Assembly: GCA_018262985.1 (NCBI GenBank)
Contig: JADFDI010000005.1
Coordinates: forward strand, 62,001 to 126,000
Direction: 5' to 3'
Length of the DNA: 64,000 bases
DNA from: Spirochaetota bacterium
Lineage (GTDB): Bacteria > Spirochaetota > Spirochaetia > Treponematales > UBA12059
Position numbers and translations under genes: made by a program. The notes under the pieces were generated by a model. The model was not told where the DNA came from. It was given only the letters and a program-made list of their open reading frames with translations, and did not search any database. This document shows positions 43,255-47,783 of this stretch, one piece after another; positions within the stretch are counted from its first letter, which is position 1, and each line of letters begins with the position of its first letter.

Positions 43255-44598
43255 TCAGGCGCCCTCGAGCCCCTCTTGGCCGACGGCGGTTTCGGCGATT
43301 TTCTTCACCTTGAGATACTCGGTGTTGAGCCGCGACATGCGCAGGTTGAGCCGCGCCAGCCGCTGCGCCAGCAGGCGCGCCAGGTAGATGCCGTAGTGCG
43401 GGTTGTCCTTGATCAGGTTGACGAAATCCTGCTTCGAGATGCGGATCAGGGTGCTCTTGCCCTTCGACACCACCGTGGCGGAGCGACGGTTGGAGAGGAG
43501 GAAGCTCATCTCGCCCATGAACATGTCGTCCGGGGTGAGCGCGGACACCAGCTTGCCCTTGGCGTAGACATGCAGGCGGCCTGAGACGATGTAATAGAGG
43601 AAGTCGCTCGCCTCTCCCTCGGAGCAGATGTACTGACCGTCCTGGAAATTCATTTCCAGCGCGCTTTCGAAGATGGCGGGGATGACGTTCGACTGGGCCA
43701 CCTGGTGGTCGATCTCGAAGCTGACCTCGTTGCCCTTCTCGTTGTAGGCGAGGTTCTTGACGTAGATGCCGGCCATGCGCATGCCCATGCCGTGGAGTCC
43801 CGGCTCGGCCGGATCGGCGTTGATGCGGGAGCGCCAATCGAAGCCGTCGCCTTCGTCGCGGATGGTGAAGCGCGACCACTCCGGCATGATCGTGTAGGTG
43901 AAGTAGACCTTCCTGGCCCGCACACCGGAATCGCGGTTCTTTTCGCGGATCAGGTCCATGATGTCGCGGTTCTTCTCGAGCCAGGCGCTTTTCTCTTCGA
44001 AGGAAATCTTGCAGTTCCCGTGTTCGATGGCGTTTATGAGGAGCTCGAGCAGCGCGACGTGGAGCTTTTCCTTCATCTCGCGGTCGATCAGGTTGGCGTT
44101 GTAGAGGTAGTTGGTGACGAGGTTCGAATACGTGGTGATGTCGAGCGGCTCGTTGTCGATGACGAAGGAGCCGGAAATGCTCTTGATCAGGTGCTGCTGG
44201 ATGCCGCGCTGGAAGAGGATCTGCTTGTTCTGCCGCACGATCTTCAGGAGGCGCTGGAAACCGGCGGCCAGTTCGCGCTTCTTGAGCATCGCGATGACGT
44301 TCTGGTCGCGCATGGACTCGCGCAGGTCCTTCTCGTCCAGCTGGTCGTGGATGGCCACGATGCCGCCGTAGTGGAGCCACGGGTCGCGCCGTATTTCCTC
44401 GAGCACGGCCATCGCGTCCACTTTCGGATCGGAGAAGCAGATGACCTTCATGTCGGGGAGCTCGTACTTGAGGAACTCGATGACGGACGAGCCGTCGCTG
44501 AAGAAGACGGGCTCGAACTCGCCGCCGAAAGCCGCGCACTGGGCCTCGATGAAGCGGTTGAGCTGTTCGTCGGAGGAGATGACGGGGAACTTTCTCAC
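43255..44598 (-). CDS. pseudo-receiver / HATPase / cyclic-nucleotide-binding protein
   Basis: 447 residues with three parts. Residues 1-115 have the alternating pattern of a receiver-like domain (VICFSDPKVDAM, possible acceptor D57). Residues 165-300 form a GHKL ATPase of the RsbW/anti-sigma type: N box LLELLINAIEHGN, G1 box RDEGDGFDW and G2 GLHGMGMRMAG. Residues 305-410 are a cNMP-binding domain with the phosphate-binding cassette FMGEMSFLLSNRRSATVVS. No dimerisation histidine or DNA-binding region is seen. It may act as a cyclic-nucleotide-gated serine kinase or phosphate sensor. It converges with crtI (1-base gap). Confidence 0.85.
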   Translation of the reverse strand: MRKFPVISSDEQLNRFIEAQCAAFGGEFEPVFFSDGSSVIEFLKYELPDMKVICFSDPKVDAMAVLEEIRRDPWLHYGGIVAIHDQLDEKDLRESMRDQNVIAMLKKRELAAGFQRLLKIVRQNKQILFQRGIQQHLIKSISGSFVIDNEPLDITTYSNLVTNYLYNANLIDREMKEKLHVALLELLINAIEHGNCKISFEEKSAWLEKNRDIMDLIREKNRDSGVRARKVYFTYTIMPEWSRFTIRDEGDGFDWRSRINADPAEPGLHGMGMRMAGIYVKNLAYNEKGNEVSFEIDHQVAQSNVIPAIFESALEMNFQDGQYICSEGEASDFLYYIVSGRLHVYAKGKLVSALTPDDMFMGEMSFLLSNRRSATVVSKGKSTLIRISKQDFVNLIKDNPHYGIYLARLLAQRLARLNLRMSRLNTEYLKVKKIAETAVGQEGLEGA

Positions 44599-44685
44599 GA
44601 TGGCCGGTCCTTGTCTTCGTTCGAGGTGGAAGCCCGCGCCGGGCGCGCGTTGCTCCCTACAGCATCGGCGCGAAAGGCGCTCCGA

Positions 44686-44715
44686 TTGACGACGATGGCT
44701 TCACTTTTGTATCAT
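44686..44715 (+). promoter_or_regulatory. tRNA-Ile promoter
   Basis: TTGACG and TATCAT separated by 18 bases, with the -10 box ending 20 bases before the tRNA. Confidence 0.6.
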
Positions 44716-44735
44716 GACCCGGCATTTAGCGCCAC

Positions 44736-44808
44736 GGGCCTATAGCTCAGCGGTCAGAGCTGCGGACTCATAATCCGTAGGTCGCTGGTTCAAATCCAGC
44801 TGGGCCCA
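44736..44808 (+). tRNA. ileX: tRNA-Ile with CAU anticodon (AUA-reading after lysidine modification)
   Basis: The sequence folds into a complete cloverleaf: acceptor GGGCCTA/TGGGCCC, D arm GCTC/GAGC, anticodon loop CTCATAA, T arm GCTGG/CCAGC with TTCAAAT, discriminator A. The anticodon CAU would suggest methionine, but GACTCATAATC followed by GGTCGCTGG matches the minor isoleucine tRNA (ileX type), whose C34 is converted to lysidine by TilS. The CCA end is not encoded. Its terminator and a set of palindromes follow directly. Confidence 0.9.
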
Positions 44809-44874
44809 GAAAACGCCGTCTCGCCCGTAAGGGCGGGGCGGCGTTTTCTATAAGGATCCAGCTGGATTTGAACC
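44787..44874. repeat. palindrome A built from the tRNA 3' end
   Basis: GGTTCAAATCCAGCTGG (44787-44803, T arm and acceptor end of the tRNA) recurs in exact inverse orientation at 44858-44874. The tRNA terminator stem (AAAACGCCG/CGGCGTTTT) is nested between the 17-bp arms. Confidence 0.9.
44810..44850 (+). terminator. tRNA-Ile terminator
   Basis: AAAACGCCG pairs with CGGCGTTTT with an inner TCGCCC/GGGCG(G) stem and a T-rich tail, two bases after the tRNA. Confidence 0.85.
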
Positions 44875-44941
44875 GAGGCGTCCGTTCCGAGCGATGAGCG
44901 AGGACGAGCGCCATGGAAGGCGCGAGAGGGCTCTCGAGGCG

Positions 44942-44980
44942 GGCTTTAGGGCTCTGGCACGATGCCCGAGCCCTAAAGCC
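44942..44980. repeat. palindrome C
   Basis: GGCTTTAGGGCTC (44942-44954) and its exact complement GAGCCCTAAAGCC (44968-44980) flank a 13-base interior with a small TGGCA/TGCCC inner pairing. Its right arm abuts the left arm of palindrome B, sharing GCC. Confidence 0.9.
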
Positions 44981-45059
44981 AAATCCAGCTGGGCCCAGAA
45001 AACGCCGTTCCGCCCTTGGGTGGGACGGCGTTTTCGATAAAGGCCCAGCTGGATTTGGC
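44978..45059. repeat. palindrome B, second copy of tRNA 3' end plus terminator
   Basis: GCCAAATCCAGCTGGGCC (44978-44995) and its exact complement (45042-45059) form 18-bp arms around a second copy of the terminator stem (AAAACGCCGT/ACGGCGTTTT). The 28 bases at 44981-45008 are identical to 44792-44819 at the tRNA. Confidence 0.9.
44999..45037 (+). terminator. duplicate of the tRNA terminator
   Basis: A 10-bp stem AAAACGCCGT/ACGGCGTTTT with TTTT tail, nested within palindrome B. It has no tRNA in front of it. Confidence 0.75.
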
Positions 45060-45148
45060 TCGGACCCGGTCGACCGTCGTGGGATGGAGCCTCGGTACGC
45101 CGGCCGCGCGAGCGAGGTGCCCGGCCGGTCCGCGGCCGGCTCCCTGAT

Positions 45149-45373
45149 TCAGCTGCCGTCCCGCGAGTTGGCTTCGACCAGTTCCCGGAGCGAGGCCAGG
45201 GCCGCCTCGCAGGAATACTGCGCCACGTCGATGGATATCGAGTCCTCGCGACCGCCGATGCCGGAGTCGAAACGGCCGGAAATGATGTTGAGCGCGGCGA
45301 GCGCGGTCTTGAAGTGCAGGATGCCCTCGTGGGCCACGTCCCGGACCGCGCGCCTTCGCGCTTCAGCCTGCAA
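45149..45373 (-). CDS. small protein coupled to CheW-like gene
   Basis: 74 residues, helical and soluble (HFKTALAALNIISGRFDSGIGG then a second helix ALASLRELVEA). The likely start is a TTG at 45373 preceded by GGAGACGCGC; it overlaps the end of the CheW-like gene by 11 bases, so translation is probably coupled. No family is recognised. By context it may be a small partner of the CheW/MCP pair upstream. Confidence 0.6.
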   Translation of the reverse strand: MQAEARRRAVRDVAHEGILHFKTALAALNIISGRFDSGIGGREDSISIDVAQYSCEAALASLRELVEANSRDGS

Positions 45374-45815
45374 GCGCGTCTCCGATCTCGCGTGACGAAA
45401 AGAGGCCGTCCGGCGACATCCTCACGATCGCCCTGCCGTCGAGCCGGGATATGCCGAGCACGAAGGGTTCCCAGACGCCGTGTACGGCATCGTCCCCGTC
45501 CGAGTCCGTGGTTTCTTCCAGGTCGACCACCCCTGAAACGCCATCGACGAGGGCGCCGACGAGCGCCCGTTCCCCGGCGCCCGGGAGCGTGAACACCAGC
45601 ACGCACGCGTCCGAGCCGAGCTCGCCCGCCCGGAGCCCCAATTTGGCGCGAAGGTCGAGGATCGGAACGCTTTCGCCCCTGAGATCCATGACCCCGCGGA
45701 AGTACGGCAAGCGGCTCGGGACGGCGGTCTCTCCCGCGTACTCGACGACGCTTTGGACTATCCGGACGTCGACGGCGTACTCGACGCCGTCGAGCTTGAA
45801 TGCCAGGTACTGCAT
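45363..45815 (-). CDS. cheW: CheW-like chemotaxis adaptor
   Basis: 150-residue single CheW domain linking receptors to CheA. MQYLAFKLDGVEYAVDVRIVQSVVEY is the typical first beta-barrel strand pair, and LPYFRGVMDLRGESVPILDLRAKLGL the conserved core (R-G-x-x-x-P-I-x-D-L). The second lobe contains VDGVSGVVDLEETT. It sits nine bases after an MCP gene and is followed by the small overlapping gene, so the three form one sensory unit. No CheA is in the window. Confidence 0.9.
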   Translation of the reverse strand: MQYLAFKLDGVEYAVDVRIVQSVVEYAGETAVPSRLPYFRGVMDLRGESVPILDLRAKLGLRAGELGSDACVLVFTLPGAGERALVGALVDGVSGVVDLEETTDSDGDDAVHGVWEPFVLGISRLDGRAIVRMSPDGLFSSREIGDALAG

Positions 45816-45824
45816 GCCGGCTCC

Positions 45825-47570
45825 TCAATAGCTCTCGAAATCGGTATCGGATACCGTCGAGGCCAGGATCGCTTGACCGGTGCGGTCGTTTTTCGGGACG
45901 ATTCCGCGAGGAGTCGCTTCGATGGACCGCCTCGATGTCGGAGCTTCGAAGACGGGTTCACCATGGTCGCCCGGACCTCGTTCGAAGCGCGCGTTGACGT
46001 GTGCGGCGCGCTCCGTCCTTCTCCCGCGTTCCGCGCCGGGGCGGGGGGCGTCCGCGTCGAGCTTGAAGAAAGAGACCGTCTCTTCGAGCAGTCTCGCCTG
46101 CCCGGAGAGCTCCTCGGCCATGCTCGCGAGTTCTTCGCTGGCGCTCGCGTTTTGCTGGATCACGGCGTCGAGCTGCGACATGGCGAGAGCGACCTGGTCG
46201 GTGCCCGTGGTCTGCTCCTGGCTCGCGGCGGCGATCTCGGCCACGAGGTCGGCCGTTTTCCGGATGTCGGGAACGGAGTCGGCGATGAGCCGGCCCGCCG
46301 CGTCGGCGGTTTCGACGGTCTTCGAGGACAGGTCCGCGATCTCGCCCGCGGCCTTCTGGCTCCGTTCCGCCAGCTTCCGCACTTCGCTCGCGACGACCGC
46401 GAAGCCGCGGCCGGCCTCGCCGGCCCGCGCCGCCTCGATGGCCGCGTTCAGCGCGAGGAGGTTGGTCTGCCTCGCGATCTCGTCGATGATGCCGGTCTTC
46501 GCGGCGATCTCCCGCATGGCTTCCACCGCGCCCGCGACGGACCGAGCTCCGGACTCGGCGCTCGCCGCAGCCTTCCTCGAAAGCGAGTCGGTGGTCTTCG
46601 CGTTGTCCGCGTTCTGCCGCACCGATCCGGACATTTCCTCGACGCTGGCCGAGACCTCCTCGGCGCTCGAGGCCTGCTCGCTGGCGCCCTGGCTCAGCTG
46701 CTCGGCCGTGGCGCTCATGCCGTCCGAGCCGCTCGAGACGTTGCGCACGGACGACTGGACCGCGGCTACGACCTCGCGCAGCTTGTCGGCCATGGCCGCG
46801 AGCGACCGGGCGATGCTGCCGGGTTTCGCCTTGCGAATGTCCAGGCGGAGCGAAAGGTCGCCCTCGGACAGGCTCGCCGCCGCGGCCGCGATCTCGGCGG
46901 GCTCGCCGCCGACCTGCCGCGTGACGGCGCGGGTGATGATGATGCCGAGCAGTACGCCGAGGCCGGTGCATCCGGCGACGAGAAGGACCATGAAGCGGAC
47001 GCTCGATTCGTACAGCTTGGTGGTCTCGACCGAGTAGTCCTCGGCGTTGGCTTCCTTCCGTCTCGACGCCTCGGTCATGGCCAGGTCGAGCGCGTCCGCT
47101 ACGGCGCGGCCTTCCCCCTGCGCCAGGGTCACCGACGCCCGACGCTCCTGCAGGTCCTCGAGCAGCGCGAGATCGATGACGCGCCGTTTGAGCGCGTCGG
47201 CGGCTGCGGCTTTCGCCCGGATGTCCTCGATGAGCCGACGACCGTCTTCGGTGACGAAGAGCCAGGACGCCTTGTCGAGGTATTCGAGCATGGCAGCCTG
47301 GTACCGGCCGACGGCTTCCGCGTGCCGGGTCCGGTCCTCCGCCGTGCTCGACAGCAGCATGTTCTTCTCGGCCCGGCCCGCGTAGATCAGGTTGATGTTC
47401 GCCTCTTTGATGTACGAAAGCCCGAGCAGCTCGCGCCGGTACATCGTGTCGGCCATGTCGTTCATGGCTCCCACGTTCCGAATTCCCACGACGCCCACGA
47501 CGGCGCTCAAGGCCGACAAGGAAAGGAACGCCAGGATCAGCATGGTTCCCAGACGCATTCGACTCTTCAT
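45825..47570 (-). CDS. methyl-accepting chemotaxis protein
   Basis: 581-residue membrane receptor. First span at about residues 8-30 ([20 protein letters not shown]), a four-helix-bundle type periplasmic sensor to about residue 190, second span ([21 protein letters not shown]), HAMP ([26 protein letters not shown]) and the coiled-coil signalling domain with the invariant tip [20 protein letters not shown] and [18 protein letters not shown]. The C-terminal 60 residues are charged and disordered and lack a CheR-tethering pentapeptide. The start at 47570 follows GGGGAGCGGAC. It is directly upstream of cheW. Confidence 0.94.
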
Positions 47571-47783
47571 GTCCGCTCCCCGGCTCCGCCGCGGGCGGAA
47601 CCTCATGGAACCAAGCTAGGAGGGGCGGAGCGCCGGGGCAACGCAACTTTGGTGCAAAGTCGGGCGCCGACCGATTGGTCGATCGCCCAAGCCGGATCCC
47701 GCGGTGGCCTTTTGCGACGAAAGTTAACTGCGCCCTGCGCGCGGACGTTGGTACCTTTCAGGCATCGTCCATCGGGGGAGAGC

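Follow-up and report, generated by a model that had tools for sequence, protein, structure and literature searches.

Several described systems share single features with the locus analyzed here. The region from the T loop to base 73 of tRNA genes is the usual attB site of tyrosine integrases, and REP elements moved by RAYT transposases are short palindromic intergenic repeats with many copies. RtT RNA, a small RNA tied to tyrT and other tRNA operons of E. coli and Pasteurellaceae, consists of tandem repeats of about 178 bp which start with about 19 bp of the tRNA 3' end. It is released from the tRNA transcript (PMC4986893). The hairpin loops of CsrB contain CAGGA(U/A/C)G elements, and the SELEX consensus of the CsrA binding site is RUACARGGAUGU (PMC7652899). 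The nearest described candidate is TwoAYGGAY (RF01731), a proposed CsrA-binding RNA with AYGGAY loops and tandem G-A pairs (PMC4333381). RNA antagonists of CsrA were, as of 2014, established in Gammaproteobacteria (PMC4333381). In spirochaetes FliW is the proposed CsrA antagonist, with one CsrA-related RNA candidate only, in Leptospira biflexa (PMC8668096).

Here we describe an apparently undescribed family of small structured tRNA-tail repeats, one member of which lies in the window, the whole stretch of 64,000 nucleotides of spirochaete DNA that was analyzed. A literature search for this layout gave no match. An Rfam scan at gathering and permissive thresholds returned nothing real except the tRNA; hits to eukaryotic miRNAs in the permissive scan were rejected as chance matches to a perfect hairpin. 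There was no match to the RtT model, none above gathering to the CsrB/RsmY-type models, and none at E values up to 10 when the TwoAYGGAY model was compared with short stretches of the core. The likeness to RsmY and rsmX in the permissive cmscan stayed below threshold, with 26.3 bits for RsmY against a gathering cutoff of 57. With RtT the family shares the place downstream of tRNA genes and the repeats of the tRNA tail, but it differs in structure, in the inverted tail copy, in the GGA loops and in its association with dozens of isotypes. The direct tail copy extends, like an attB site, from the T loop to base 73; however, an inverted copy and a conserved core are added and a cargo gene is missing. 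Compared with REP elements the family has a larger core with a three-way junction, arms copied from the host and a fixed place and orientation behind tRNAs, and by eye the core is unlike the GTAG/GTGG-type REP palindrome.

The host tRNA gene in the window has the anticodon CAU (44736-44808, plus strand, ARAGORN and Rfam) and is of the tRNA-Ile2 type; ARAGORN labeled it tRNA-Met and an earlier note on this DNA tRNA-Ile(CAU). It is followed on the same strand by a first terminator hairpin, T1 (44808-44849), seen as an inverted repeat, and by an inverted copy of the tRNA 3' end (44858-44874, tRNA bases 52-68), identified by repeat analysis and comparison with the tRNA. The conserved core (44870-44980) matched our covariance model R1 with 86.8 bits (E 1.2e-15). 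Then come a direct copy of the tRNA 3' end (44980-44997, tRNA bases 56-73, repeat analysis), the second terminator hairpin T2 (44998-45035, inverted and direct repeats) and, read from the sequence, a second inverted copy of the tail (45042-45060). All copied arms derive from bases 52-73 of the host tRNA, and sequence comparison identifies T1 and T2 as diverged duplicates of a single terminator. No second core follows the second inverted copy, which by its sequence appears to be a truncated next unit.

The core contains the P1 apical hairpin GCGCC-AUGGAA-GGCGC with a GGA loop (44908-44923, plus strand, sequence and fold) and the P2 hairpin (44942-44980, plus strand, inverted repeat and alignment). 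The window copy of P2 has the loop CACGAUG in place of the CAGGA(U/A/C)G of the family, and paired bases replace the GGA/GGA internal loop of the family; with one GGA loop lost, the P1 loop AUGGAA alone retains GGA. The RNA fold z-scores of 44736-45062 (-14.9) and 44850-45037 (-8.8) are far beyond chance, and the predicted fold of the latter segment comprises a closing stem, the core and the terminator. The divergent upstream neighbor encodes a histidine-kinase-like ATPase/cNMP-binding protein, CheW and MCP genes lie downstream, and the surroundings were judged ordinary. Over 43258-47606 the tRNA is set among signaling and chemotaxis genes, and the upstream gene is apparently syntenic in several relatives.

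The repeats described by the earlier note could be confirmed. Palindrome A (44787-44803 / 44858-44874) is perfect over 17 bp, palindrome C (44942-44959 / 44963-44980, identical with P2) has a perfect outer arm of 13 bp, and palindrome B (44977-44995 / 45042-45060), described with 18-bp arms, is perfect over 19 bp. The direct repeat (44791-44826 versus 44980-45015) has a spacing of 189 bases, and its first 29 bases are identical. Only the arms had been recognized; the conserved part is not the arms, whose sequence varies with each host tRNA, but the core between them, with its three-way junction and palindrome C. Whole-genome searches with the 28-base segment and palindrome C found the literal sequences at this locus only, whereas the architecture recurs. 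A sequence search alone would therefore have judged the locus a singleton. The suggestion of a tRNA-derived repeat family was correct: further tRNAs of this genome are followed by the layout, most relatives have it, also after tRNA-Ile(CAU), and the locus is neither a single occurrence nor unconserved. That of a hairpin-end element found no support. A decoy or processing RNA comes near the best explanation given below, with the difference that the target of the decoy would be a GGA-loop-binding protein such as CsrA and not the tRNA enzymes. An assembly artefact was excluded by independent genomes with the same layout, including the one-contig genomes G031 and G034, and a plain tandem duplication was rejected on the basis of independent genomes and isotype-specific arms.

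The window's own genome shows the same layout after tRNA-Gly(TCC) and tRNA-Pro(CGG), each with the tail of its own tRNA. R1, which was built on the core of about 110 nt, had matches in 40 of 59 relatives. Within the order, probably Treponematales to judge from relatives named Spirochaetes or Treponema, 247 of 394 genomes and 69 of 92 genera had matches, with scores of up to 106 bits across genera. The order-wide search scored nine candidates per genome, and copy numbers from it are lower bounds. Fuller searches of single genomes revealed 11 copies in G000, 6 in G031 and 20 in G034; carriers have several to 20 core copies per genome.

The core is located between the inverted and the direct tail copy and consists of a three-way junction (P1) and a hairpin (P2). 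It has about 110 nt in nearly all copies and no coding capacity. In a MAFFT alignment of the 16 first copies, both partners vary in 22 of 30 pairs, which exceeds every shuffle. When the alignment of 86 distinct copies was fitted to the covariance model, 91.2% of the cells were paired compared with 61.9% in shuffles, and both sides had changed in 29 of the 30 pairs. The covariation score of these copies was 0.625 versus 0.173 for shuffled and at most 0.09 for slid controls. Single core sequences gave fold z-scores from -3.8 to -7.6. Tandem G-A motifs (5'-CGAG) can be read from the sequences of both core parts, and the internal loop of P2 is GGA/GGA. In the stems, G-U or U-G (61) was more frequent than A-C or C-A (23), an excess which favors an RNA of the tRNA strand, with the reservation that the model itself tolerates G-U.

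GGA is present in the P1 loop of 76 of the 86 copies, in the forms CAUGGAUG, CAGGAUG and CAGGGAUG, and in the P2 loop of 60. The P2 loop reads CAGGA(U/A/C)G in 52 of the 86 and CACGA(U/A/C)G, lacking GGA, in 17, the window copy included. CA(N)GGA(A/C/U)G occurs in 75 of the 86 copies, where a first-order Markov model predicts about 6, and the tRNA strand carries GGA 8 times as often as the opposite strand. The conserved loop motifs of the two hairpins, CAUGGAUG and CAGGA(U/A/C)G, correspond to the CsrB/CsrA-site motif, and the hairpin loops resemble sites at which the global regulator CsrA docks. The CAGGA(U/A/C)G hairpin loops and a terminal intrinsic terminator are shared with CsrB, RsmX, RsmY and RsmZ; in contrast to these RNAs, the family has few sites per unit, many units per genome and a tie to tRNAs. 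The P1 loop AUGGAU fits the AYGGAY of TwoAYGGAY, and both arms carry the 5'-CGAG tandem G-A, but the family combines a three-way junction with a hairpin containing a GGA/GGA internal loop, is linked to tRNAs and occurs in other phyla.

The position of the family is also conserved. Among 55 spirochaete copies, 49 are located directly downstream of a co-directional tRNA gene, with a median gap of 60 nt and 24 different anticodons, and several of the exceptions still have a tRNA- or tmRNA-like 3' stub. The longest match of an arm to its own tRNA was on average 14.5 nt for the inverted and 15.3 nt for the direct copy, compared with 6.2 and 5.5 when the tRNAs were swapped. In most cases the geometry is constant: the direct copy spans tRNA bases 56-73 and the inverted copy runs from about 52-54 to about 70-73. 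Behind tRNA-Gly(TCC) tandem units are present in G000 but not in the sister species G001, where tRNA and terminator pass straight into the flank. Some tRNAs retain solely a palindrome of tail, terminator and inverted tail.

A pattern scan detected the core also in two MAGs with the title Deltaproteobacteria, for which the model gave 14 and 36 matches. The class of these MAGs, labeled Deltaproteobacteria, is distant, and 11 of 26 genomes from it carry the core. Here the core stands behind tRNA-Glu, -Ser, -Sec, -Asn and -Leu and behind an apparent tmRNA tail, with the same arms. In G395 the copies are mostly dispersed, each after a hairpin made from the local flank, and at two loci (L229 and L245) the hairpin-forming flank is duplicated on both sides of the copy; judged from these sequences, the logic would be the same as at tRNAs with other targets. 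Dispersed copies of this second class often lie just after the stop codons of co-directional open frames, according to a refined stop-codon check which was not decisive.

The gene csrA is present in the window's genome. Counting among the 59 relatives only genomes that are at least 90% complete, 31 have both csrA and the element, 11 only csrA, one only the element and 6 neither; the association of element and csrA in the relatives (Fisher p = 0.005) is not corrected for phylogeny. In one family (f4) among the 394 genomes the 11 csrA genomes are exactly the carriers of the element, and the 13 csrA-free genomes listed lack it, a concordance that could reflect a single evolutionary event. Exceptions are G091 (99% complete), G014 and G063, which carry the element without a detected csrA; in the second bacterial group csrA was found in G395 and none was detected in the element-bearing G394. 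The element is missing from many genomes with csrA, so that the link is partial; it is suggestive, has exceptions and gives weak to moderate support for a CsrA reading.

Our best explanation, which we hold tentatively and with a little less than even confidence, is a tRNA-coupled small RNA titrating CsrA or a similar GGA-binding protein, carried on a unit that spreads by copying the tail of its target. It starts from what is observed: conservation, covarying structure, loops on one strand, a co-directional location downstream of tRNAs and target-specific tail copies. In the mechanism that we infer, RNA polymerase would read through the tRNA terminator T1, and in the resulting RNA the inverted and direct tail copies would pair to a long closing helix around the P1 three-way junction and P2, until the transcript ends at the duplicated terminator T2. 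The loops of P1 and P2 would display CAUGGAUG and CAGGA(U/A/C)G, the motif by which CsrB/RsmY-type RNAs bind and titrate CsrA, and through the family the level of free CsrA, or of a similar protein that binds GGA loops, would be coupled to the transcription of tRNAs. The unit itself would spread among tRNA and tmRNA genes by an insertion that copies the 3' end of the target on both sides. If this is true, the family is the missing RNA arm of CsrA control in the order, linked to tRNA transcription. CsrA titration alone leaves the tail copies unexplained; a pure titrator needs no host-matching arms. A bolder version, to which we give distinctly less credence, sees the family as tRNA-parasitic genetic units of a new class. 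In it, a folded element of about 110 nt would move among tRNA and tmRNA 3' ends, rebuild the host tail in both orientations and make each tRNA unit a source of CsrA-titrating RNA; tRNA synthesis would then determine how active a global regulator is in spirochaetes and in at least one further class. No familiar insertion mechanism rebuilds the target's own tail both ways, and the element makes one testable. The covariance model offers an immediate annotation route for thousands of blank intergenic regions.

The strongest rival, quite possible in our judgment and compatible with a CsrA-titrating RNA, is a non-autonomous mobile repeat, comparable to REP or MITE elements, which targets tRNA and tmRNA 3' ends and copies them on insertion; its hairpins would serve its own movement, as folded single-stranded DNA or an RNA intermediate, with no host function. 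The filled and empty tRNA-Gly(TCC) of the sister species, the tandem expansion of units, the arms copied from each host tRNA, the 36 copies of G395, which are mostly dispersed and in some cases have the flank duplicated on both sides, the patchy distribution across two distant bacterial groups and REP-like inserts at the same places are all in line with mobility. The loop motif, the orientation and the G-U bias, however, speak for a function exerted by the transcribed strand, the copies are nearly confined to tRNAs in spirochaetes, and a search that was not systematic identified no partner recombinase or transposase. Position and tail-repeat logic would also suit a processing product which, like E. 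coli RtT (PMC4986893), is freed from precursors of tRNA and has a CsrA-independent role in growth or stringent control. We consider this improbable, because it leaves the CsrA-type loops and the inverted arms unexplained and the RtT model of Rfam did not match.

Two alternatives remain. An over-long terminator or insulator palindrome downstream of tRNA genes, in which the core is filler, is very unlikely: T1 and T2 are good hairpins and some tRNAs keep just the palindrome of tail, terminator and inverted tail, but the core is the conserved part, with up to 106 bits across genera, and its role as a filler is refuted by the covariation in 86 copies. Least credible are scars left by integrative elements at attachment sites in the 3' ends of tRNAs. 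The extent of the direct copy from T loop to base 73 would fit, and tyrosine-integrase-like frames were recognized in the sequence after a broken direct copy (L046) and directly after a tRNA (L060). Such scars are, however, direct repeats only, as the earlier note had also argued for phage attachment; an inverted copy and a covarying core of constant length (about 110 nt in nearly all copies) belong to no att site, and the matches of the arms to their own tRNAs together with the core covariation largely refute this reading.

Some further arrangements were observed at tail copies. Behind tRNA-Ser GCT, L166 in G001 lacks the core exactly between the inverted and direct copies when compared with L135 in G000, possibly by deletion between GAACC repeats. 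At tRNA-Thr GGT, a palindromic insert of about 50 bp in G000 (L138) is flanked by a 16-bp direct copy of the tRNA tail, and G001 (L168) has a clean empty site. A short REP-like hairpin replaces the GGA core between the tail copies at tRNA-Pro GGG (L150/L173) and tRNA-Cys GCA (L140/L170); the tail-copying layout is therefore not exclusive to the GGA core. REP-like inserts of about 60 bp, a second class of insert consisting of a hairpin and a CAATCCATTCC-type tail, are located within core loops, sometimes in tandem (L004, 1701-2100; L040, 498-672, minus strand; L143; L175). They insert into units of the family as if hairpin loops were preferred sites. Tyrosine-integrase-like frames begin right behind tRNA-Ile(CAU) or a broken tail copy at L060, L046 and L044, indicating that larger elements, too, use tRNA-Ile(CAU) as an integration site.
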